64,000 nt of DNA, from positions 186,001 through 250,000 of the forward strand of contig JAUXNX010000001.1 in the NCBI GenBank assembly GCA_030682575.1, written 5' to 3'. The number at the start of each line of letters is the position of its first letter. Position 1 is the first letter of the stretch. Positions 23,846 to 62,801 of this stretch are shown here, piece by piece. The notes under the pieces were generated by a model. That model searched no databases. It was not told where the DNA came from and worked only from the letters and a program-made list of their open reading frames with translations. This stretch comes from Gammaproteobacteria bacterium (GTDB lineage: Bacteria > Pseudomonadota > Gammaproteobacteria > Pseudomonadales > Pseudohongiellaceae). Made by a program: the position numbers and the translations under genes.

Positions 23846-24310
23846 ATGCGACTGTCATTTTCACGAACAACACGCCTGCCACACTGGCTGCTGGCACTCC
23901 TGCTGCTGATGTATGTCGGGCAGTCGGTGGCATCGGTGTCTGTGCCATGTCATCTGCTGTCACAGGAAACAGAGGAGCATGGTGGATATGCAGCACGTGC
24001 AGACCACAGCGGGCACGACATGAGAACGGTGGTGAATCATCATCAGCATGGTCATGAGATGGATCATTCTGCGCATGGAGTGGGCTCTCCCGACAGTGTC
24101 ACCACCAGTGCCGACGCCGCTGCCACCGCGCTGCACGATTGCTGCGACACAATGAGTCATTGCGGTTCTGGCAATTGCTTCATGACTTCGCTCGATGAAA
24201 GAGTGCTTTATGCCCCCTTGAATGTCGGTACGGCAGAGCTTGCTGCTGCCGTCGACGAATCCCCCGCACGACCCACCTACTCGCTCTACCGCCCACCCAT
24301 TCTCCGCTGA
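23846..24310 (+). CDS. copL: CopL-like histidine-rich periplasmic protein
   Basis: A 154-residue protein with an N-terminal signal sequence (LPHWLLALLLLMYVGQSVAS). A His/Met/Cys-rich stretch follows (RADHSGHDMRTVVNHHQHGH; then CCDTMSHCGSGNC). It lies directly before copA in the same direction, as CopL does in Xanthomonas, where it is needed for copper-inducible copAB expression. The DHSxH motif is the same as that repeated in the downstream CopA. The start at 23846 is chosen because it begins a proper signal peptide; no strong ribosome site is seen. The symbol is by analogy. Confidence 0.6.
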   Translation: MRLSFSRTTRLPHWLLALLLLMYVGQSVASVSVPCHLLSQETEEHGGYAARADHSGHDMRTVVNHHQHGHEMDHSAHGVGSPDSVTTSADAAATALHDCCDTMSHCGSGNCFMTSLDERVLYAPLNVGTAELAAAVDESPARPTYSLYRPPILR

Positions 24311-24425: not shown

Positions 24426-26462
24426 ATGAATGAATCACGCAGCACCCATGCTGCATCGATATTGTCGAGAGACAAGCCACATCCTTCAGAAGGAATAACC
24501 AGACGTCGCTTCGTACTCGGCGCGTCGTCATTATTGGCGCTGAGTACGCTGCCGCTGCCCGCTTCATTGTTCGCGAGCAGCGCAGCATCGAGAACCGGCC
24601 CGCAGACGCTTGCGGGCCAGGTGTTCGATCTCACCATCGATTATCAGAATGTGAATATTACCGGCAAGAAGAGCAGAGCAACCACGGTGAACGGGAGTTT
24701 GCCCGGACCGATCCTGCGTTGGCGGGAAGGTGATCGAGTGACCTTGCGAGTGAAGAACAATCTCGATGTGGAAAGTTCCATTCATTGGCACGGCCTGATC
24801 CTGCCCTGGCATATGGATGGCGTGCCCGGCATCAGTTTCGATGGCATTCCACCGGGTGAAACGTTCGAGTATCAGTTCGATCTGGTGCAGAGTGGTTCCT
24901 ACTGGTACCACAGCCACTCGTCCTTTCAGGAGCAGATCGGGTTGCTCGGCGCCATCATCATCGATCCGAAGGAACCTGACCCCGTTGTGTATGACCGCGA
25001 CCTGGTTGTGCTGTTGTCCGACTGGAGCGACGAAGACCCGCACGCGATCTATGCCAAGCTCAAGAAGATGAGTCACTACTACAATCGCAGCGAACGCACT
25101 CTGGGCGATCTGTGGCGCGATGTGCGGGACAATGGCATTGCGGCCACCGTGAGCGATCGTGCCATGTGGAACCAGATGCGCATGAGCAACAGCGACATCG
25201 CGGATGTTACCGGCTACACCTATACCTATCTGATGAACGGCGTCACGCCAGACGAAGGCTGGCTCGGTGAATTCAGGCCCGGTGAAAAGGTGCGCCTGCG
25301 TTTCATCAACGGGGCCGCGATGAGCATCTTCGATGTGCGTATTCCCGGTCTGAAGATGACAGTGGCAGCAAGCGATGGACAGAACATTCAACCAGTGGAG
25401 GTGGATGAGTTCAGGATTGCCGTGGGGGAAACATACGACGTGATCGTGGAGCCTGCCGCCGATCGCGCCTACACGATCTTTGCACAGAGTAATGATCGCA
25501 GCGGGTATGCCCGTGGCACATTGACTGCCGATACATCTCTGCGCGCAGAAGTCCCGGCGATGGATCCGGCTCCGGTACTCGGACATGCCGAGATGGGCAT
25601 GGCCATGGCTGGCATGGATCACAGTGCGCATCAGGCGACTGACGCGACGGCCGTGGATCACAGCAGTCATGGTGTTGCACCAGTGCCGGAGGTAGATCAC
25701 AGCAATCACGCACCAACACCTGCGCCCGAGATCGATCACAGCAGTCACACCTCGGCGGCATCACCGGCACCGGAAGTAGATCACAGCAACCACGGTGTCG
25801 CACCAACCGCTGTCGTCGATCACAGCAACCATGTACAGAGCCCTGCTGCAAATGCAAGTCAGGCTTCACAGCAACCGCTCGCTCTTGCGGGTTTCGGCAG
25901 CAATTTCGGCACAGCGCCACTGGTCACCCATTCCGCCAGCGAGTTCGGTCCCCACGTGGATTATCGTTCCGAGGCGCCTCAGAGTGGCCTTGCCGATCCA
26001 GGCATTGGACTGCGCCAGCATCAGGCTCTGTACAATCGCCGTGTGCTGACTTATGCCGATATCCGCGGCCTCACTCCGACCCGCGACAAGCGCCAACCCA
26101 CCCGCGAAATCGAACTGCATCTGACCGGCAACATGCGCCGCTACATGTGGTCGGTCAATGGCATCAGCTTTCATCACATCGATCCCATTCAGTTGCAATA
26201 TGGTGAACGTGTACGCTTCATTCTCGTCAACGACACGATGATGACGCATCCGATTCATCTGCACGGCATGTGGAGCGAACTGGAGACAGGTGATCCCGAT
26301 TACATGCCGCGCAAACATACGATCATCGTGCAACCCGGTGCGCTCGTGAGTTATCTGGTGACGGCCGATGCGCCAGGACCGTGGGCCTTCCACTGTCATC
26401 TCATGTATCACATGCCCGGCATGATGCGCGAAGTGCGCGTATCGCAGGAGATGACGACATGA
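24426..26462 (+). CDS. copA: Copper-resistance multicopper oxidase CopA
   Basis: Periplasmic multicopper oxidase of 678 residues that oxidises or sequesters copper. A Tat signal is evident (RRRFVLGAS from residue 26). Copper ligand motifs are SSIHWHGLILPW, SYWYHSHSSFQEQIGL, HPIHLHGMW and FHCHLMYHMPGMM, covering the type 1, 2 and 3 sites. A repeated DHSxH segment between the second and third cupredoxin domains is listed separately. A GGAG site seven bases upstream fixes the start at 24426; the frame opens earlier at 24222 inside the previous gene. It overlaps copB by four bases. Confidence 0.95.
   Translation: MNESRSTHAASILSRDKPHPSEGITRRRFVLGASSLLALSTLPLPASLFASSAASRTGPQTLAGQVFDLTIDYQNVNITGKKSRATTVNGSLPGPILRWREGDRVTLRVKNNLDVESSIHWHGLILPWHMDGVPGISFDGIPPGETFEYQFDLVQSGSYWYHSHSSFQEQIGLLGAIIIDPKEPDPVVYDRDLVVLLSDWSDEDPHAIYAKLKKMSHYYNRSERTLGDLWRDVRDNGIAATVSDRAMWNQMRMSNSDIADVTGYTYTYLMNGVTPDEGWLGEFRPGEKVRLRFINGAAMSIFDVRIPGLKMTVAASDGQNIQPVEVDEFRIAVGETYDVIVEPAADRAYTIFAQSNDRSGYARGTLTADTSLRAEVPAMDPAPVLGHAEMGMAMAGMDHSAHQATDATAVDHSSHGVAPVPEVDHSNHAPTPAPEIDHSSHTSAASPAPEVDHSNHGVAPTAVVDHSNHVQSPAANASQASQQPLALAGFGSNFGTAPLVTHSASEFGPHVDYRSEAPQSGLADPGIGLRQHQALYNRRVLTYADIRGLTPTRDKRQPTREIELHLTGNMRRYMWSVNGISFHHIDPIQLQYGERVRFILVNDTMMTHPIHLHGMWSELETGDPDYMPRKHTIIVQPGALVSYLVTADAPGPWAFHCHLMYHMPGMMREVRVSQEMTT
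25614..25832 (+). repeat. DHSxH copper-binding repeat block inside copA
   Basis: Within copA, residues about 397-469 hold six copies of a [M/V/I]DHS[N/S/A]H motif separated by Ala/Pro-rich spacers of 7-10 residues. The DNA units resemble one another (GTAGATCACAGCAAYCACG-like), which suggests expansion by slippage or unequal recombination. Pseudomonas CopA proteins carry Met/His repeats at the same place that bind extra copper. Confidence 0.85.
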
Positions 26463-52646: not shown

Positions 52647-52988
52647 TGTGTTGTATCTCCAAAACTGTTCGTTGTTGAAACGCTTTTCAAACGTTTAGTA
52701 GGCTCAGTGGTCAGCTAAATCCCCTCTGTGAACCCTCATGGGAGTTCTGTTTGAGAAGGGTTTAGCAACAAGCGCGCCAACACAATGAAATCTGTTTATC
52801 TTATTGTTTTAAAGAATATTAGTTAGAGAAAACAAGAAAAGCCCCGCAGTGATATTCGCGGATTTTCTTATTTATTGGCGAATATACCCATCCAGATCAC
52901 GTGTGCAGGTTGTGTTTGTTATTTCAGAGCCGGATACTGTACATTATTACAGCCTTTCAATTTCCCTGTGCCACGAGAGCAGATTCGT
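52647..52988. other. Upstream region of the double uvrA
   Basis: A divergent gap of about 342 bases, AT-richer than its surroundings. Besides the LexA box listed separately, it holds an 8-bp inverted repeat (ATATTCGC at 52852, GCGAATAT at 52878) with an 18-base spacer, of unknown meaning. No gene is seen. Confidence 0.5.
52937..52952 (+). promoter_or_regulatory. LexA (SOS) box
   Basis: CTGTACATTATTACAG is a perfect CTGT-N8-ACAG dyad. It fits the E. coli-type consensus TACTGTATATATATACAG closely, including the TA before CTGT. It ends 36 bases before the start of the tandem uvrA gene. SOS control by LexA is the expected role. Confidence 0.85.
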
Positions 52989-55900
52989 ATGCAGAACATC
53001 CAGGACGGCATCGTCATCAAGGGCGCCCGCCAGAACAATCTCAAGAACCTCAGCCTGACACTGCCGACCGGCAAGCTGATCGTGATCACCGGCGTGAGCG
53101 GTTCAGGCAAATCCACGCTGGCGTTCGACACCATCTATGCCGAAGGTCAACGCCGCTATGTGGAAACCTTCTCTGCCTACGCGCGGCAGTTCCTGGATCG
53201 CATGGACAAGCCTGCGGTGGACAGCATCCTCGGCATCCCTCCGGCCATCGCCATCGATCAGAGCAATCCGGTGCGCACCTCGCGCTCCACCGTGGGCACG
53301 ATGACCGAGCTGAACGATTACCTGAAGCTGGCGTTCGCGCGGCTTGCCCTGCTGCATTGCCCGCAGTGTGCGCGCATTGTGCGCAAGGACACGCCGCAGA
53401 GCATCGTCGCCGACCTGCATGAGCGCCTGCAGCAGGAGCAGCGCATCAACATCTGCCTGCCTATCCGTGTGCCACACAATTTCAGTGAGGAAGAGATCGT
53501 GCAACTCCTCGGTCAGCAGGGCTATACCCGCATCCAGTCGCGCCACAGAACCGACAAGGGCGATGTGGTGGAAGCGGTGCAGGATCGCCTGCGGCTGAAC
53601 GAGGCCAATCGCGAACGTCTCGGTGAGGCATTGGAGGTGGCGATGCATCACGGCAATGGTCGCGTGGTCGTGTATCCAATCTCCGAAGGTGAATCAGCGA
53701 GTGACAAGGACACTGCCCTGCCCCCGCTGCGCTTTTCCAGTCATCATCACTGCGCCGATTGCGACATCGAATTCGCCGAACCCCAACCCAGCCTGTTCTC
53801 GTTCAACTCCCCCATTGGCGCGTGTGATGAGTGCCGTGGCTTCGGACGCATCATCGGCGTGGACTTCGGATTGGTGATTCCCGACGAGAACAAGTCGCTC
53901 GCCCAGGGTGCGGTGAGACCCTGGCAGACGCCCAGCTTCAAGGAATGCCAGGACGACATGATGCGCTTTGCGCGCAAGCGCAAAATCCCCACAGACACGC
54001 CATGGTCTCAGCTCAGTACCGAACATCAGCAATGGGTGCTGGAAGGCGAAGGCTCCTCGGAAGATGGTCTGTGGTATGGCGTGCGGCGGTTCTTCAACTG
54101 GCTCGAAACCAAGGCCTACAAGATGCACATCCGGGTGCTGCTGTCGAAGTACCGCGCCTATACGGAGTGTCATGTATGTCATGGCACCCGCTTGAAGGCG
54201 GAGAGTCTGTGGTGGCGATTGCATGGGGCAGATCGGCATCTCAACATCAACGAAGTGATGACGCTGTCGCTGGAGCATTGTGCGGATTTTTTTGCGGCGT
54301 TGGCGGGGGGCAGGATCGACAGCGGGGATGGTGGGAATATTCATTCGCGAGCGAGGCTCGCTCCCACAGGGAGTGCGGGGAGTGCGTTGGATGAGGCAAC
54401 GCAACTGTTGATGACGGAGGTGCGTTCACGACTCGGCTATCTGCTCGATGTCGGGCTCGGCTATCTCACCCTGGACAGGCAATCGCGCACGCTCAGCGGC
54501 GGCGAAGTGCAGCGCATCAATCTCACCACCGCGCTCGGCACATCACTGGTCAACACGCTGTTCGTGCTCGACGAGCCCAGCATTGGTCTGCATTCGCGGG
54601 ACATGACGCGCATGATCCGCATCCTGCATCGCCTGCGCGATGCGGGCAACACGCTGATTGTGGTGGAGCACGATCCACAGGTGATGCTCGCCGCCGATCT
54701 CATCATCGACATCGGGCCGGGGCCGGGCAAGGACGGTGGTGAGATCCGCTTCATGGGCACGCCTGCACAGTTGCTGAAGCACAAGGACAGCCTCACGGCG
54801 CAGTATCTGAATGGCAAGCGTTCGGTGCTGGATCTGGTGTTGCAGCAGAAGTCAGAACGCGAAGATCAGAATCGAACTGCGGGAGTGGCGGATACTGCCG
54901 CAACGTATTCACTCGCGAAGCCCGCTTCTGCAAGAGCCACTTCGGGAACGAGCCCTGCTCGCGATTTCCAGAGCGCTCCCGCAGTCTCCATCCAGGGAGC
55001 AAGTGAGCATAACCTTCGTGACATGGACATCCGCATCCCTCTCGGCCAGCTCGTGTGTCTCACTGGCGTCAGTGGTTCAGGTAAATCCACCCTCATTCAC
55101 GACGTGCTCTATCGCGCCGCATGCAAATATTTCGGACAGGCCACCGAGGCTCCCGGCGCACACACAGCGGTAACCGGTCTCGAACACGTGCAGAACGTGG
55201 TGATGGTGGACCAGAGTCCCATCGGCAAGACCACACGCTCCATTCCAGCCACCTATGTCGGTGCGTTCGATGTGATCCGCCAGCGCTTCATCAGCGAACC
55301 GCTGGCGAAGGAACGCGCCTACACCGTCGGCACGTTCAGCTTCAATGCGGGCAACGGACGCTGCCCCACCTGCTCCGGTAACGGCTTCGAGCATGTCGAG
55401 ATGCAGTTCCTCAGCGACGTGTATTTGCGTTGCCCGGAGTGCAACGGCAAACGCTATCGCCGCGAGATACTCGAAGTACGCATCTCCGGTGCCACGCCGG
55501 GGCGCAAGACCATTGCCGATGTGTTGGAGATGACGGTCAGCGAAGCACTCGCCTTCTTCGCCGACGATGCGGGCGTGATCGAATGCCTGCAGCCACTGCT
55601 CGATGTCGGTCTGCAGTATGTGCAGTTGGGTCAGGCCGTACCCACACTCAGTGGCGGCGAGGCGCAGCGTCTTAAACTCGCGGGTCATCTCGCGACCATC
55701 GCGCAGGAGCAATCGAAGGCCGCAGGCAAGCGCAAACGCAGTACAGGAAAGCCTGCGAAGGGCCTGCTGTTTCTCTTCGACGAACCGACAACGGGATTGC
55801 ACTTTCATGACATCAGCGTGCTGATGAGCGCATTCCGCAAGCTTATCAATGCGGGGCATTCGCTTCTCATCATCGAACACAATCTCGACGTGATCCGCGT

Positions 55901-58736
55901 CGCCGACTGGTTGATCGACATCGGACCGGAAGGAGGAGACAAGGGCGGCACACTGGTAGCCGAAGGCACGCCTTCCGAATTCCTGCAGCATGGCAAGGGG
56001 CTGACCGCGCAGGCGCTGCGCGAATACGAGCAGAGCATGATGGATACGCGCCGTCGTTCGCTCGCTGCGCTGCCGACTATCGATAAAGCAGCAAAGTTGC
56101 CCGCTCCAGTCAGAGCGATTCAGATACACCACGCCCGCGAACACAATCTCAAGAACATCGACGTCAGCATTCCCTGGAACAAGTTCACGGTCATTACCGG
56201 CGTGAGCGGCAGCGGCAAGAGCACGCTCGCGTTCGACATCGTTTTCGGCGAAGGTCAGCGTCGCTACCTCGAATCCCTCAATGCCTATGCGCGGCAATTT
56301 GTGCAACCTGCCACCCGTCCCGACGTGGATGCGATTCACGGCATTCCACCGACGGTAGCCATCGAACAGCGCACCAGTCGCGGGGGCCGCAAGAGCACCG
56401 TCGCCACACTGACCGAGATCTATCACTTTCTGCGTCTGCTTTTCGTCAAGCTCGGCGTGCAACACTGCCCGCGCTGTGATGTACCCATCGCCCCGCAGAC
56501 CAGGGACATGATCCTTTCCAGAATTCTTTCAAGCTGGAAAGGCAAGGAAGTGAATCTGCTGGCGCCGATGGTGGTGGGCCGCAAGGGCATCTACAAGGAA
56601 CTGGCGGCGTGGGCGGCGAGCCGTGGCTACACACAACTGCGCGCCGACGGCCATTATCTGCCGAGTGATCCCTGGCCAGTGCTGGATCGCTACAAGGAAC
56701 ACGATGTCGAGATTCTCACCGGCAGTTGCATGGTCAACGCGCGCAACGAGGCGATGCTGACTGCGCTGATCGACCAGACACTCGAACTTGGCAACGGCCT
56801 GCTCATCGTCGCCCCTGTGAAGGCGGCAGCGGGCGAACGCAAGGCCGACATGCTGTTCTCCACGCAGCGCGCCTGTCCCTCCTGCGGCGACAGCTTTGAT
56901 GAACTTGATCCACGCCTGTTCTCCTATAACTCCAAACATGGGTGGTGTGGCACCTGTTTCGGCACCGGCGAAATCATCGGCAGTTTTACGGAGGAACAAA
57001 CGGGCGAAGAAGAAGTCTGGCTGGAGACGTCAGAAACCGACAACGAAGACGACTTGCCCCCGGACCGAGTGTGCTGCCCTGCGTGCGATGGTCAGCGTCT
57101 CAATCCTGTGGCACTCGCCGTGCAACTGGAAGGACGCTCGATTGCAGAGTTCACCGAGTTGTCGGTCATCGACGCAGAGCAGAGGATCGGTAAATTCCGC
57201 TTCGACAGGAAGGAACAGGCCATTGCCCGCGATGTGCTGCCAGAACTGCGCTCACGCCTGAGTTTTCTCAACAAGGTTGGACTGGGGTATCTGAGCCTTG
57301 ATCGCGCAGCGCCAACTCTCAGCGGCGGCGAAGCGCAGCGCATACGCCTCGCCTCCCAGCTCGGCTCCAACCTGCAGGGCGTGTGTTACATCCTCGACGA
57401 ACCCACCATTGGTCTGCACGCGCGGGACAATGCGCTGCTGATCCAGACCCTGCGTGAACTGCAGCAGCACGGCAACACCGTGATTGTCGTCGAACACGAC
57501 GATGCCACCATGGCCGAGGCCGACCATCTGATCGATGTGGGGCCTGGCGCGGGCAGCCGTGGTGGTGAGATTGTCGCTCAAGGCACACTTGCGCAACTGA
57601 AGAAGAACAAGGTCTCGCTCACCGGCCGTTTTCTCGCCAACCCGTTGCGCCATCCATTGCCAAATCTGCGCGATGTCATCGCACGCACAATATGGCCAGA
57701 CACAATATTGCGAATCGAGGAAGCCACGTTGAACAACCTGCGCGATGTCTCCCTCGACATTCCCCTGCGCCGACTGGTTGCCGTCAGTGGCGTGAGCGGC
57801 AGCGGCAAGAGCACGCTGATTCGCGGCGTGCTCTTCGACAACCTTCGCCAGGCGCTGCGCGCGCGCAACAACCGCAGGAAAATTCCGGCCTGGACTGGCT
57901 GTGACAAGCTCACAGGCTGGGAGAGTGTGGACCGTCTGCTGCAGGTGGACCAGACACCTATCGGCAAGACACCCCGCTCCTGCCCCGCCAGCTACATCGG
58001 CATCTGGGACACCATCCGCAAGCTCTTTGCAGACACGGTCGATGCACGTCTGCGCGGCTACGGGCCAGGTCGCTTCTCCTTCAACGTCTCGGGCGGCCGC
58101 TGCGAAACCTGCGCCGGCAACGGCATGCGCCGCATCGAGATGAACTTCCTTCCCGACGTGCGGGTGAACTGCGAGGAGTGTCACGGCTGGCGCTTCAACG
58201 ACGACACGCTGGCAGTACGCTACAAGGACAAGCACATCGGCCATGTACTTGCCATGAACGTGGACGAGGCGGTGGAATTCTTTGCGCCCGTGCCGCTGGT
58301 GCATCACCCGCTCAGCCTGTTGCAGGATGTCGGTCTGGGCTACCTGACTCTGGGTCAGCAGAGTCCGACGCTGAGTGGCGGCGAGGCACAGCGCATCAAG
58401 CTGGTGGCAGAGTTGGCGAAGGCGAAACCCTCAGTGCAGCTGCGTCGCAACACCGTCACGCACAGCCTCTACATTCTGGATGAGCCAACGGTGGGTCTCC
58501 ATATGGCAGATGTGGAGAAATTGTTGCGAGTACTGCACCGCCTCGTTGATACCGGCAACAGTGTGATTGTGATCGAACACAACCTCGATGTGATCGCGGA
58601 AGCCGATTGGGTGATCGACATGGGACCCGAAGGCGGCAAGGATGGTGGCAAAGTGATCGCCCAGTGCGAACCGCTGGCACTGACCCGCAAGAAAAAGTCG
58701 CACACAGGCACTCATCTTGCGCGGTTGTTCTTGTAG
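52989..58736 (+). CDS. uvrA: Tandem double UvrA (four ABC modules)
   Basis: A 1915-residue protein made of two consecutive UvrA-like units, against about 940 residues for a normal UvrA, the damage-recognition subunit of nucleotide excision repair. Walker A motifs GVSGSGKS occur near residues 35, 692, 1070 and 1600. ABC signatures LSGGE(V/A)Q occur near 500, 886, 1443 and 1794. Zinc-binding CxxC sets are present in both units. I place the start at 52989 because it gives the UvrA N-terminus (MQNIQDGIVIKGARQNNLKN) and follows a LexA box. REP-like sequence is translated near residues 451-462 and 639-660. Long UvrA fusions are known in other genera, but their role is unclear. Confidence 0.93.
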   Translation: MQNIQDGIVIKGARQNNLKNLSLTLPTGKLIVITGVSGSGKSTLAFDTIYAEGQRRYVETFSAYARQFLDRMDKPAVDSILGIPPAIAIDQSNPVRTSRSTVGTMTELNDYLKLAFARLALLHCPQCARIVRKDTPQSIVADLHERLQQEQRINICLPIRVPHNFSEEEIVQLLGQQGYTRIQSRHRTDKGDVVEAVQDRLRLNEANRERLGEALEVAMHHGNGRVVVYPISEGESASDKDTALPPLRFSSHHHCADCDIEFAEPQPSLFSFNSPIGACDECRGFGRIIGVDFGLVIPDENKSLAQGAVRPWQTPSFKECQDDMMRFARKRKIPTDTPWSQLSTEHQQWVLEGEGSSEDGLWYGVRRFFNWLETKAYKMHIRVLLSKYRAYTECHVCHGTRLKAESLWWRLHGADRHLNINEVMTLSLEHCADFFAALAGGRIDSGDGGNIHSRARLAPTGSAGSALDEATQLLMTEVRSRLGYLLDVGLGYLTLDRQSRTLSGGEVQRINLTTALGTSLVNTLFVLDEPSIGLHSRDMTRMIRILHRLRDAGNTLIVVEHDPQVMLAADLIIDIGPGPGKDGGEIRFMGTPAQLLKHKDSLTAQYLNGKRSVLDLVLQQKSEREDQNRTAGVADTAATYSLAKPASARATSGTSPARDFQSAPAVSIQGASEHNLRDMDIRIPLGQLVCLTGVSGSGKSTLIHDVLYRAACKYFGQATEAPGAHTAVTGLEHVQNVVMVDQSPIGKTTRSIPATYVGAFDVIRQRFISEPLAKERAYTVGTFSFNAGNGRCPTCSGNGFEHVEMQFLSDVYLRCPECNGKRYRREILEVRISGATPGRKTIADVLEMTVSEALAFFADDAGVIECLQPLLDVGLQYVQLGQAVPTLSGGEAQRLKLAGHLATIAQEQSKAAGKRKRSTGKPAKGLLFLFDEPTTGLHFHDISVLMSAFRKLINAGHSLLIIEHNLDVIRVADWLIDIGPEGGDKGGTLVAEGTPSEFLQHGKGLTAQALREYEQSMMDTRRRSLAALPTIDKAAKLPAPVRAIQIHHAREHNLKNIDVSIPWNKFTVITGVSGSGKSTLAFDIVFGEGQRRYLESLNAYARQFVQPATRPDVDAIHGIPPTVAIEQRTSRGGRKSTVATLTEIYHFLRLLFVKLGVQHCPRCDVPIAPQTRDMILSRILSSWKGKEVNLLAPMVVGRKGIYKELAAWAASRGYTQLRADGHYLPSDPWPVLDRYKEHDVEILTGSCMVNARNEAMLTALIDQTLELGNGLLIVAPVKAAAGERKADMLFSTQRACPSCGDSFDELDPRLFSYNSKHGWCGTCFGTGEIIGSFTEEQTGEEEVWLETSETDNEDDLPPDRVCCPACDGQRLNPVALAVQLEGRSIAEFTELSVIDAEQRIGKFRFDRKEQAIARDVLPELRSRLSFLNKVGLGYLSLDRAAPTLSGGEAQRIRLASQLGSNLQGVCYILDEPTIGLHARDNALLIQTLRELQQHGNTVIVVEHDDATMAEADHLIDVGPGAGSRGGEIVAQGTLAQLKKNKVSLTGRFLANPLRHPLPNLRDVIARTIWPDTILRIEEATLNNLRDVSLDIPLRRLVAVSGVSGSGKSTLIRGVLFDNLRQALRARNNRRKIPAWTGCDKLTGWESVDRLLQVDQTPIGKTPRSCPASYIGIWDTIRKLFADTVDARLRGYGPGRFSFNVSGGRCETCAGNGMRRIEMNFLPDVRVNCEECHGWRFNDDTLAVRYKDKHIGHVLAMNVDEAVEFFAPVPLVHHPLSLLQDVGLGYLTLGQQSPTLSGGEAQRIKLVAELAKAKPSVQLRRNTVTHSLYILDEPTVGLHMADVEKLLRVLHRLVDTGNSVIVIEHNLDVIAEADWVIDMGPEGGKDGGKVIAQCEPLALTRKKKSHTGTHLARLFL
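54341..54374. repeat. REP palindrome inside the uvrA coding frame
   Basis: The minus strand reads CTGTGGGAGCGAGCCTCGCT followed by CGCGAATG, a Pseudomonas-type REP head and stem (GCGAGCGAGGCTCGC). It lies in frame inside uvrA and is translated as IHSRARLAPTG, within the insert before the first ABC signature. Confidence 0.75.
54903..54970. repeat. Degenerate REP pair inside the uvrA coding frame
   Basis: Two REP-like stretches in the linker between the first and second ABC modules: CTCGCGAAGCCCGCTTCTGC and, further on, GGAACGAGCCCTGCTCGCGA. Both are decayed relative to the 54341 copy. Together they encode about 22 linker residues rich in Ala, Ser and Pro. Confidence 0.5.
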
Positions 58737-58879
58737 ATCCCTTTCATGTGAGAAGCAGGCTTCAATCACTCGCACAAAAAGTGCCCCACCAACTGCTTTA
58801 CCCATCGTGAATGGACAGGCTATGATGACCCGGCGAATTGACGGTTACTCAAAATCTACCGCTTTCCAGGGTTCCCCCC

Positions 58880-60604
58880 GTGATCCAGACCATCAAGAAC
58901 AAGATCACACGCGTCATCATACGCACCAGCGTGGTGATTGCAGGACTGCTCAGCACAGCTCTGGTTGGCTGGCTGATGGCAGATTCCGCCTTGCGTGTGT
59001 GGCAGGTCGAAGCCATTACCGAGGCCGAACGACTCAGTACCGAATTGAATTACCGCGTCCAACGCGAACGCGAACCCCTTGTTGCCATATCCATACTCTA
59101 CTTCGGATCCACCGAGGTTACGCAGGATGAGTTGATCGCCTCCAGGGCTCAACTGGTTGACTCTACTGCTCGCAACCCCATGCTTTCACTCGGATTCGTG
59201 ACACGCAGAAATGAAGATGGTTTCCTGGTGCAGCAGGCCGCTGGCGACTTGCCGCTGTTGCCAACGGGCCAGTCCTATCTGATCAATGAACATCTGGTCA
59301 CAACGATCGAACAGGCTTTCGAGCAGAAGCCCGCCATCGTGACTGGCGCTCTCTTCAAGGTCGATGACATCAGCTACCTGCCGCTGGCCATTGCCGTCCC
59401 CAATGCTGAGATGGAGGGGGTGCTTGTCTGCCTGATTGATTTCAGTCACCTTCTGGAGGACGTGACCAGGGGAATCATCGCCAACGGCACCACCGTGGAA
59501 ATCTACCACCCCGAATTTCCCAATGTGAATTATTCCAGCCTGCCAGCCCTGAACTCCGCGCAGGAGATGTCGCATCAAACGGAAATCGACATGGGGCTCT
59601 ACCGCTGGGAACTCATCTGGCACTTCGACGCCGACAACGGCAATCCGGTGGACTATCGGCTGACATATGTGTCTATCGCTTTCGGACTGGCGATCACCGC
59701 TCTGTTGACCTTCATCATCCACAATATCCTGCAGCAACAGCGCCGTGTCGAACAGCAGGTGAAAGAAAAATCCGCAGAGCTGGAAGATGCTCACAGCAAA
59801 ATGGTACAACAGGGCCGAATGGCGGCCCTCGGCGGGATGGTGGCAGGTATCTCCCACGAACTGAATACGCCGGTGGGCAACAGTCTCATGGCGGCAACGG
59901 TGTTGCGGAACCGCACAGCAGAGGTGCGCGGGTTGCTGACGGACAACAATCTCAAACACTCCGATCTGAGCAGTTTTCTTGAGTTCGCCACCGACAGCAG
60001 CCGCATCATAGAAGAGAATATCCGCCGCGCCACCGAGCTGGTGAAGAACTTCAAGCAGGTCGCAGTTGATCAAACCAGTGAGCGCAGACGCAGCTTCAGC
60101 ATCTCGGTGATGATCAACGAACTTGTTACAACATTGAGCCCACAGCTCAGGCATACTTCACACAGACTTGAGGTCGTCGTACCCGAACATGTTCTGATGA
60201 ACAGTTACCCCGGCCCCCTCGGTCAAGTCATTACCAACCTGGTCATGAATTCCTTGACTCATGCCTTCGAGTCCCACACCAGTGGACTGATGCAGATCAC
60301 GGTCCGAATGCCTGACGATCTGCACCTGAGCCTTGAGTACAGTGACAACGGTTGCGGCATAGACGAGAAAATCAAAAGCCGCATCTTTGACCCGTTCTTC
60401 ACCACGCAACTCGGCCAGGGCAGCAGCGGCCTGGGCCTGCATATCGCCTATAACATCGTCACCGACATGCTCGGCGGTGAGATCAAGCTCGATGAGAAAA
60501 ACAGCAAAGGTGTGCGCTTCCTGATCACTCTGCCTCTTGAGGCGCCTGAAAGGCGACAACAAAAAACACAGGACCGACGGAACACTCCCTATGGCACACA
60601 ATAA
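58880..60604 (+). CDS. Membrane sensor histidine kinase
   Basis: A 574-residue two-component kinase. A membrane helix near residues 12-32 (VVIAGLLSTALVGWLMADSA) and a second near 268-290 enclose a periplasmic sensor domain. A short coiled segment (QQQRRVEQQVKEKSAELEDA) leads to the H-box GMVAGISHELNTPVGNS. The N box NLVMNSLTHAFE and G boxes DNGCGID and GSSGLGLHIAYNIV follow. I use GTG at 58880, with AGGG upstream; TTG 58838 is the alternative. It overlaps the response regulator gene by 14 bases, so they form a pair. The signal is unknown. Confidence 0.88.
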   Translation: MIQTIKNKITRVIIRTSVVIAGLLSTALVGWLMADSALRVWQVEAITEAERLSTELNYRVQREREPLVAISILYFGSTEVTQDELIASRAQLVDSTARNPMLSLGFVTRRNEDGFLVQQAAGDLPLLPTGQSYLINEHLVTTIEQAFEQKPAIVTGALFKVDDISYLPLAIAVPNAEMEGVLVCLIDFSHLLEDVTRGIIANGTTVEIYHPEFPNVNYSSLPALNSAQEMSHQTEIDMGLYRWELIWHFDADNGNPVDYRLTYVSIAFGLAITALLTFIIHNILQQQRRVEQQVKEKSAELEDAHSKMVQQGRMAALGGMVAGISHELNTPVGNSLMAATVLRNRTAEVRGLLTDNNLKHSDLSSFLEFATDSSRIIEENIRRATELVKNFKQVAVDQTSERRRSFSISVMINELVTTLSPQLRHTSHRLEVVVPEHVLMNSYPGPLGQVITNLVMNSLTHAFESHTSGLMQITVRMPDDLHLSLEYSDNGCGIDEKIKSRIFDPFFTTQLGQGSSGLGLHIAYNIVTDMLGGEIKLDEKNSKGVRFLITLPLEAPERRQQKTQDRRNTPYGTQ

Positions 60605-62801
60605 TAACGACGACATCGTGTTCAAGCCCGAATCGCCTGTCCAGAAAAAGGCACCTCTGCGCCCAGAGGACTCCTGGCATATCCTGATTGTGGATGACGA
60701 CAAGGAAGTGCATGAGGTCACACGCCTGGCACTGTCCAGACTGACGGTGCTGGGCAGGCCTCTGGAGTTGCATCACACGTCGTCGGCCGCCGAATGTCTT
60801 CAATTTCTCGAAGACAGAGACAATATCGCTGTCATCCTCATCGATGTCGTGATGGAAACCGAAGACGCCGGCCTCAGCGCAGTACGCTATATCAGAAACA
60901 CCATGGCACGGGACGAAGTGCGCATCATCCTGCGCACCGGCCAACCAGGATATGCGCCGGAAGAAAATGTGGTGCAGGACTACGACATCAACGACTACAA
61001 AACCAAGTCGGAACTCACCCACAGCACACTCACAACAGTGATGATTTCGTCCATCAGGTCGTATCAGCAGATCCGTACCATCAATCAGAATCGCAAGGGC
61101 TTGCAGAAGATAATCAACGCAGGCGCAAGCCTGATGGAGCAACATTCACTGGAGGAGTTTTCGGACGGGGTGATTACACAGATCTCGTCCTTGCTCGGCC
61201 TGCGGGCAGAGGGTTTGCTATGCGCTCAGGCGCGACTGGATGAAGACGCTGAGCAGGACGACATCTACATCATGGGCGCGGCAGGCAGTTATGCCCCATT
61301 GATTCGCCATCAACTGAGTCGCATTGACGATACCCACATAAGCAGCCTGATCAATACTTGTCTGCAGCAAAAGCAGCACCTTTATACCGATGCCGAAACC
61401 GTGCTGTATCTGGGTAACGAACAACATACAGCCGCCGTCTATTTGCAAACTCGTTGCCCGATTTCAGAGACCGACAAAGCACTGCTGCAGGTATTTCTGT
61501 CGAACATCACCATCGGTTACGAGAACGTCAAACTGTTCCAGGAACTGCGTGTTACTGCATACACAGATCCGCTCACACGTCTGGCCAATCGCATCGAATT
61601 CACTCGCCTGTTGCAGGGCAGAGTCGACAGCGAAGAGGCAAGACAAGTCGCCGTACTCGTCGACATCGATCACTTTTCCGACATCAACGACGGACTCGGC
61701 CAGGAGACAGGCAACGAACTGCTCATCGCCGTGGCAAGCCGCCTGAAGATGGCCTTTGGCGACAACTGTGTAGTGGCCCGTGTGGACGCGGACGTATTCG
61801 GCATTGTCGGAGAAGAGTTCAATCTCTCACCACAATCCATCCTGGCCATTTTCGAATCACCTTTCAGCACTCGCGATCAGGTGTTGTCGATCAATGCCAC
61901 TCTCGGCATAGGTCGTCTGCATGAACTTGGCGATCACGGATTGACCATGCTCAAGCGCGTCTACATTGCATTGAACAGCGCCAAGAAGGAGAACACCCGA
62001 CACTTCGAATACTACTCTCCGGAGATGGAAGAAGCGAAAGAGCAAAGACTGCAGATGATCCGACAATTGCGGATAGATTTTGCGCTGCAGAAACTGCGTA
62101 TCTGGTATCAGCCGCAGTACGACCTGAAAACACGCCGCATTGTGTGCCTTGAGGCACTGTTGCGATGGCCACAGGCAGACGGAAGTTTCATCCCTCCCGG
62201 CGTCTTCATTCCCATCGCGGAATATTCAGGGCTCATCATTTCCATCGGGGCCTGGGTGCTCGAGAACGTCTGCGCGCAGATCGCCATGTTCAAGGCCGCA
62301 GGGTTCAAGGATCTACGGATCGCAGTCAACGTCTCCATGCCGCAATTCCGCAGTCCTCTTTTCGTCCCCCATGTCGCCAGTGCGCTGAAACGTCACAATA
62401 TTGCCAACGGTGAACTGGAACTGGAAATTACTGAGTCTGTCATGATGGATGACCCGGAAGCCCTCATTCAGTGCCTCACCAAACTGAAGGCTCTCGGTAT
62501 CCGCATATCCATTGACGACTTCGGCACCGGTTACTCGTCACTGAATTACCTGCGTCGCCTGCCGCTCGACAAGATGAAAGTAGACCGCAGTTTTATCCGG
62601 GATATTGGCAAACCCGGCGGAGCCGTCATCGCCGAAACCATTGTGCATCTTGGCAGACAACTGGGGTTGGTGACGATCGCGGAAGGGATAGAAACCGCCG
62701 AACAGGAACAGATCATGACAGACATGGGGTGTGTCGAGGCACAGGGCTACTACTTTGCCAAACCCATGCCGTTGGAAGAGCTTGCGGAGTTGCTCAAGTA
62801 G
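60591..62801 (+). CDS. REC-DUF3369-GGDEF-EAL phosphodiesterase
   Basis: A 736-residue response regulator. The receiver domain comprises about residues 25-150 (ILIVDDDKEVHEVTRLALSR; VILIDVVMETEDAG). A DUF3369 sensor-like domain follows, about 155-330. A GGDEF domain (about 340-490) has a degenerate active site, DADVF in place of GGDEF. The EAL domain from about 495 keeps EALLRW, ELEITESVMM, IDDFGTGYSSL and AEGIETAEQ. It is therefore expected to degrade cyclic di-GMP, not make it, and its output may act on the PilZ protein at 18117. The start at 60591 lacks a strong ribosome site but is the first good ATG; the kinase gene overlaps it. Confidence 0.9.
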   Translation: MAHNNNDDIVFKPESPVQKKAPLRPEDSWHILIVDDDKEVHEVTRLALSRLTVLGRPLELHHTSSAAECLQFLEDRDNIAVILIDVVMETEDAGLSAVRYIRNTMARDEVRIILRTGQPGYAPEENVVQDYDINDYKTKSELTHSTLTTVMISSIRSYQQIRTINQNRKGLQKIINAGASLMEQHSLEEFSDGVITQISSLLGLRAEGLLCAQARLDEDAEQDDIYIMGAAGSYAPLIRHQLSRIDDTHISSLINTCLQQKQHLYTDAETVLYLGNEQHTAAVYLQTRCPISETDKALLQVFLSNITIGYENVKLFQELRVTAYTDPLTRLANRIEFTRLLQGRVDSEEARQVAVLVDIDHFSDINDGLGQETGNELLIAVASRLKMAFGDNCVVARVDADVFGIVGEEFNLSPQSILAIFESPFSTRDQVLSINATLGIGRLHELGDHGLTMLKRVYIALNSAKKENTRHFEYYSPEMEEAKEQRLQMIRQLRIDFALQKLRIWYQPQYDLKTRRIVCLEALLRWPQADGSFIPPGVFIPIAEYSGLIISIGAWVLENVCAQIAMFKAAGFKDLRIAVNVSMPQFRSPLFVPHVASALKRHNIANGELELEITESVMMDDPEALIQCLTKLKALGIRISIDDFGTGYSSLNYLRRLPLDKMKVDRSFIRDIGKPGGAVIAETIVHLGRQLGLVTIAEGIETAEQEQIMTDMGCVEAQGYYFAKPMPLEELAELLK

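Follow-up and report, generated by a model that had tools for sequence, protein, structure and literature searches.

The stretch of DNA considered here, a window of 64,000 nucleotides (positions 186,001 to 250,000 of contig JAUXNX010000001.1, assembly GCA_030682575.1, from a gammaproteobacterium of the family Pseudohongiellaceae), contains a gene that joins two UvrA units in one protein chain behind a LexA box, and raises the question of what such a chain would do that an ordinary UvrA, which normally acts as two identical proteins paired, does not. Tandem UvrA is in itself a known kind of protein, and the answer developed below concerns the unlikeness of its two halves and the control of the gene. 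On balance, we favor the reading that the gene encodes an SOS-inducible accessory single-chain asymmetric UvrA "dimer", the units of which would pair within the chain to offer one arm that senses damage and one good dock for UvrB; this reading is drawn from sequence comparison.

An open frame runs uninterrupted from 52875 to 58736 on the forward strand. The initial annotation had proposed a 1915-residue product of one frame, and this holds from an ATG at 52989, which is the likely start because the sequences 5' of it diverge with insertions and deletions among members of the genus, save for the box and a TTGT block; the start that had been given, 52937, is that of the box and not of the gene. 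Four complete Walker A and ATP-binding cassette (ABC) signature sites in two UvrA units had also been claimed, which is correct for the ATPase sites: a pattern search finds four Walker A and four LSGG motifs, alignment shows the Walker B and H-loop residues intact in both units, the TIGR00630 and PRK00349 profiles hit the product in four stretches, and each unit has the two ABC ATPase modules (Walker A/B and signature) of a class I UvrA. Unit 2 is, however, without an insertion domain, and is therefore an incomplete UvrA. The gene is laid out as follows, with key residues in E. coli numbering.

52989..58736, forward strand: tandem uvrA, a single frame of 1915 aa with its ATG at 52989 and a stop ending at 58736 (open reading frame and homologues)
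52989..55988, forward strand: unit 1, residues ~1-1000, a UvrA in which the insertion domain and the equivalents of R216/E222 are present (alignment, AlphaFold, Foldseek)
55989..56081, forward strand: approximate linker joining unit 1 to unit 2, which by alignment spans 36 residues in the window and 24-74 over the 86 aligned rows described below
56082..58733, forward strand: unit 2, residues ~1032-1915, a UvrA that has no insertion domain, with the equivalents of R216/E222 replaced and that of R730 retained (alignment, AlphaFold, Foldseek)

A frame error, or an assembly collapse of two adjacent genes, had been raised in the initial annotation as the finding that would overturn it. In favor of such an artefact, draft contigs do stop inside the tandem gene, and in one genome of the genus (G010, L034) the gene is split into two frames on one contig, by decay or sequencing error. 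Against it, a scan of genome contigs, which retained the best 80 loci, found one frame of more than 1700 aa in 79 of them (the exception, L063, is a contig edge) and four exact Walker A patterns in 78 of the 79 long-frame loci, with long single frames occurring in named isolates too. Among the 13 other genomes of the genus, the tandem frame is complete in seven (G001, G006, G007, G008, G011, G012, and G013), reaches contig ends in four (G002, G003, G004, and G009), and has no match in G005, which is 76% complete. In the plasmid collection, 15 records among the matches listed are each ~5.8 kb in one piece and plainly tandem; the figure of 28 out of 155 plasmid records is no count of tandems, since one UvrA can match both units. 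For the same reason 22 phage records were scored as covering 80% of the query, out of 44 with matches, and the ten phage matches listed are ~2.8 kb long, equal in size to one UvrA. Frame error or collapse is thus refuted by these data, and we leave it practically no probability. Some frame boundaries deserve a separate remark: two candidates for free-standing units (G078 and G084) were rejected, and both stop at contig ends; their draft contigs (L190-L192) break off within the tandem gene where unit 2 begins, and can mimic split genes. In L131, the tandem frame stays open for ~1,350 codons upstream, giving an open reading frame of 3280 aa.

The suggestion of a division of labor between the units is supported by the sequence, and in a more specific form than first proposed. 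It rests on an alignment of 86 rows per unit, 84 of them distinct (L056 being identical to L028 and L057 to L027), with 14 single UvrAs and E. coli UvrA. The rows comprise 85 loci and the window; L026 (the window itself), L061 (three Walker A motifs by the pattern used), L063, and the truncated L034-L042 were left out. The elements on which the two units differ are located in the window as follows.

53391..53738, forward strand: unit 1 UvrB-binding domain (E. coli 131-248) by alignment, with the R158-K159-G160 motif replaced and one stretch missing
53862..54152, forward strand: unit 1 insertion domain (E. coli 290-400), matching PF17755 at residues 292-358, the sole such stretch in the protein
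56499..56861, forward strand: unit 2 UvrB-binding domain, predicted folded, with R158-K159-G160 and R178 retained and, in the window, R216 replaced by M and E222 by D
56976..57044, forward strand: short variable stretch that replaces the insertion domain in unit 2 by alignment, with a predicted local distance difference test score (pLDDT) of 55-60

The region of the insertion domain measures 95-103 residues in all 86 unit 1 rows and only 19-34 in all 86 unit 2 rows, compared with 110-111 in the 14 single UvrAs. The UvrB-binding domain is present twice, PF17760 matching in two stretches with one domain per unit, and its residues are retained in a reciprocal manner. R176 and R206 are UvrB contacts, and their equivalents, together with that of D205, are kept in 95-100% of unit 1 rows versus 1-12% of unit 2 rows; the R216 equivalent is R in 86/86 unit 1 rows versus 7/86 in unit 2, and at the E222 position the 86 unit 1 rows have E 78 times and D six times, compared with E eight times and D 17 times in the 86 unit 2 rows. 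In unit 1 of the window, R181, D199, R200, R210, and E216 correspond to E. coli R176, D205, R206, R216, and E222. Conversely, the equivalents of R158, K159, G160, R178, and H198 are retained in 99-100% of unit 2 versus 0-2% of unit 1, the R158-K159-G160 motif being present in every unit 2 row. In signature domain II, R730 is found in 86/86 unit 2 rows and in no unit 1 row, R722 in 65/86 and 21/86, respectively, and R712 and R724 in nearly all rows of both units. Features of one ancestral UvrA have thus been divided between the two units. Passages of PMC3025350 assign R216 and E222 of E. coli UvrA to its UvrB interaction surface, and report that loss of residues 290-400 reduces damage discrimination. 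The identities of both surface residues were confirmed in the E. coli UvrA sequence. In searches of an open-access library, one of them aimed at tandem UvrA, we found no prior description of this systematic unlikeness of the halves, nor of an SOS box on the tandem rather than the ordinary uvrA, although such a description may exist elsewhere.

Unlike halves could also result from a redundant paralogue that has drifted since duplication, in which case their differences would be functionless. Of the 35 UvrB-binding-domain residues that are invariant in single UvrAs, only 10 in unit 1 and 12 in unit 2 are retained at ≥80%, the zinc ligand C256, scored along with the ATPase sites as the initial annotation had proposed, is replaced in 30/86 unit 1 rows, and the frame is broken in G010, all of which is what drift would produce. 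The losses, on the other hand, are identical and reciprocal over all sampled lineages, and the four Walker A lysines are retained in 86/86 rows. The phylogeny points the same way: in a FastTree analysis of 101 sequences (30 of the 86 pairs, 38 single UvrAs, and three of class II; apart from E. coli, all come from the genomes sampled here), unit 1 and unit 2 each form one clade with a support of 1.0, so that the units were distinct before the sampled lineages parted. When the tree is rooted on the three class II sequences, the single UvrAs form one clade at 0.60, which unit 2 joins at 0.98. We accordingly regard functionless drift as very improbable. AlphaFold models built per unit from 34-row alignments are in line with two UvrA folds: unit 1 reaches a pLDDT of 81.7 and a predicted template modeling score (pTM) of 0.76, with the UvrA structures 2r6f and 3uwx as its best Foldseek hits, and unit 2 a pLDDT of 81.7 and a pTM of 0.73, with 3uwx and 2r6f as the best hits. 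Both models predict a folded UvrB-binding domain, and only that of unit 1 a folded insertion domain.

The search for a separate normal uvrA, which had been called for, shows that the genome of the window also holds a single uvrA, as well as uvrB, lexA, and recA, which makes the tandem an accessory gene. A single uvrA is present in 69 of the 75 tandem-bearing genomes searched (partial hits counted), and the six without one are metagenome-assembled genomes. Carriers of the tandem include, by title, Paraburkholderia, Cupriavidus, Bordetella, Achromobacter, Saccharospirillum, and Thiocystis, as well as three metagenome-assembled genomes titled Verrucomicrobia, Spirochaetia, and Spirochaetales; of the 186 other genomes in the class sample, 24 give tandem-type matches, and contig ends truncate at least three of these. 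Eight tandem-bearing genomes (G230, G231, G238, G247, G250, G273, G289, and G291) also carry a further class II-like UvrA, with a profile match from about position 263.

The ready supply of a single UvrA as partner, and the full ATPase core retained in each unit, would also suit a tandem that assembles in trans, either through association of two chains or through partnership of one unit with the single UvrA, giving a complex of more than two units or a mixed one. Yet no free-standing unit was seen beyond the two candidates that stop at contig ends, and the simplest explanation of the reciprocal losses is a complex in which unit 1 faces unit 2. Assembly in trans is therefore in our view unlikely, though we give it some weight.

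How the accessory gene may be controlled is indicated by the following element.

52937..52952, forward strand: LexA (SOS) box CTGTACATTATTACAG, an exact CTGT-N8-ACAG, 36 bp 5' of the ATG

The perfect box that had been noted ahead of the gene is confirmed, the pattern used being the LexA consensus. By count alone it is weak, as CTGT-N8-ACAG occurs three times in the window versus 1.25 expected, a number matched by 16 of 100 shuffles, and 68 times genome-wide versus 49 for the pattern read backwards; conservation was therefore used as the basis. The further matches in the window, at 23957-23972 and 25810-25825, are probably due to chance. Of the 12 genomes of the genus in which the 5' end can be read, 11 have an exact box ahead of the tandem gene, and in ten aligned genus upstreams the box core is conserved while the flanks diverge (all ten are box-bearing, three were cut out around the box by pattern, and G009 and G012 were left out). 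Box-like sequences also lie upstream of lexA (CTGTATATAATTACAG) and of recA (TACTGGTTGAATATACAGTA, with one core mismatch) in the same genome, so that the box at the tandem gene is similar in type to those at lexA and recA; it is also conserved in near relatives, as sought for a member of the LexA regulon. A sigma-70 promoter scan gave no match at the box. Over the wider sample, an exact box is found upstream in 20 of 84 tandem rows, versus 0/84 in the reversed control and 0.5% of 1603 random windows. It is these exact boxes that carry the signal, because boxes at ≤1 mismatch (29/84 rows) are frequent in the controls too (8/84 reversed and 7% of random windows). Ten of the 20 exact-box rows belong to the genus of the window (two being duplicate records), and the other ten to Motiliproteus, Achromobacter, Cupriavidus, Pandoraea, Caballeronia, four Paraburkholderia, and one Candidatus Burkholderia.

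Comparison of the two uvrA copies within the same genome adds to this picture. In 55 genome pairs, a scored box lies at the tandem only in 12 (two being genus duplicates), at the single uvrA only in one, at both in none, and at neither in 42, with 8/2400 random windows and 0/120 reversed sequences as controls; 60 pairs were examined and 55 counted, the short stretches being L076, L092, L094, L119, and L128 (of which L092 and L128 are tandem only), and the single-uvrA stretch of L093, wrongly 4,272 bases long, has no box. In the genus of the window, all six pairs examined are tandem only, and the single-uvrA upstreams have a box at ≤1 mismatch in 0/10 cases (one, L140, is only 172 bases long, and L147 was unusable). 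The single-only case is Saccharospirillum salsuginis (L158 / L058), with a box on the single uvrA and none scored on the tandem. The same scan recovers the box of E. coli uvrA, and finds a box upstream of lexA in 22 of the 28 genomes validly scanned (from 29 stretches, the misplaced L274 being left out). Judged by these scored boxes, where a LexA box precedes a uvrA, that uvrA is in almost every case the tandem copy (12 versus 1 of 55 pairs), and the link between tandem and box is frequent in some clades and missing in others. In the passages seen of PMC3323433, uvrA belongs to the conserved SOS core of multichromosome betaproteobacteria, with no copy named. This predicted betaproteobacterial LexA regulon shares with our data a uvrA as a putative LexA target, but here the box lies on the tandem copy in tandem-bearing Burkholderiaceae; should the box be functional, the "uvrA" listed for SOS regulons of betaproteobacteria may in many cases be the tandem gene instead of the E. 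coli-type uvrA.

These observations can be combined into a model of a damage-induced asymmetric chain. Cleavage of LexA upon DNA damage would induce the tandem gene, the product of which would contribute, through unit 1, the only insertion domain, for damage discrimination, and the better-preserved UvrB/Mfd contact surface, and, through unit 2, two further ATPase sites along with the more complete set of signature-II DNA-binding residues. Pairing would take place within the chain, unit against unit, as between the protomers of an ordinary UvrA dimer, giving a polar complex in which each chain offers a single sensor arm and one good dock for UvrB; this complex would act beside the single UvrA and, under heavy damage, pass UvrB to the usual UvrC pathway. 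If the units are paired within the chain, the UvrB-binding domain of unit 1 and signature domain II of unit 2 would together form one well-preserved dock; the converse dock would be without most of the named contact residues, and so one UvrB per chain and one sensing arm are predicted. A naturally occurring chain that carries one insertion domain, and is predicted to have one good dock, offers a test of stoichiometry that dispenses with engineered heterodimers; the tuberculosis structure entries 9ga3 and 9ga4, known by title, between them bear both titles at issue. Going further, we propose with some reserve, as a possibility that we would not yet lean on, a damage-inducible excision repair run by a natural one-chain UvrA heterodimer that has only one sensor arm and only one dock for UvrB, in which UvrB loading would be fixed at one per complex with built-in polarity, and SOS control would have passed from the ordinary uvrA to the tandem.

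Several points weigh against this model, and they concern both the dock and the box. According to the passages seen of PMC3025350, R216A/E222A UvrA retained repair with a wild-type-like strand bias, so the second dock may be weak rather than absent, and the replacements in unit 2 need not abolish UvrB binding; R730 was tested only jointly with three other arginines; and Bacillus stearothermophilus UvrA without the insertion domain had no apparent defect in an earlier study recounted there. The D found at the E222 position in 17 unit 2 rows, the window included, is moreover a conservative replacement. As to the box, 64 of the 84 tandem rows have no exact box upstream; the genus member G009 (L154) has none before its tandem gene, and neither have the tandems of G016 and G023, from the same family, and G032, from the same order. 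In the pairwise comparison, 42 of 55 genomes have no box at either uvrA, and many of these absences are real, because the same scan finds a lexA box in 18 of the 24 validly scanned genomes of this kind.

Two observations outside the tandem gene itself may be recorded here. On the same strand, ~100 bp 3' of the tandem uvrA, positions 58838-62801 hold what, from a reading of the sequence, are likely to be a sensor histidine kinase and a GGDEF/EAL response regulator. Elsewhere in the genome of the window, the open reading frame from 1976 of L020 (G000:C5:78462-81477) bears a GLDIGIASVGWAV motif, by which we take it to be the start of a type II Cas9-like protein.

One of the closest known systems is the single-chain class I UvrA (E. 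coli; PRK00349/TIGR00630), with which the tandem shares the fold, the ATPase motifs, most zinc cysteines, and the UvrB-binding domain; it differs in having two units in one chain, each with different parts lost, the UvrB-binding domain being present in both units but R216 and E222 rare in unit 2 (7/86 and 8/86) and the insertion domain restricted to unit 1. The E. coli uvrA has a LexA box, whereas the single uvrA of the window's genome has none. Another is the chlamydial tandem UvrA described by the NCBIfam model PRK00635/NF001885 (1809 positions), likewise with two UvrA units per chain. The whole-protein score against PRK00635 is 1116.8 bits, below the curated cut-off of 3054. Short ATP-binding I pieces of units 1 and 2 map to profile positions 6-115 and 939-1056, but a longer unit 2 piece fits unit 1 of the profile best, as does every signature-I piece, so that the collinearity suggested by the short pieces does not settle unit-to-unit descent. 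A tandem homologue is also found on CHR2 of Cupriavidus metallidurans CH34, with a frame of 1982 codons, four Walker A motifs, and two LexA-like boxes upstream, and it is probably the "uvrA2" (Rmet_4549) that PMC2864759 places on this replicon, in passages that mention neither a tandem structure nor SOS control.

The last comparison is with the class II UvrAs (D. radiodurans UvrA2, Ecm16, and DrrC), which are also accessory paralogues beside a normal UvrA and which suggest a further reading, that the tandem is a sensor of damage or drugs that works independently of UvrB. An accessory paralogue under stress control would fit this role, and Ecm16 confers resistance without UvrB (PMC10192343, as far as the passages seen go). 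Class II UvrA, by the passages seen of PMC10192343 and PMC5128194, is without the UvrB-binding domain, which both tandem units have (PF17760, predicted folded in each) and in which unit 1 keeps R216 in every row; nor do the units cluster with class II in the phylogeny, which contains only three class II sequences. We therefore hold a UvrB-independent role to be improbable.

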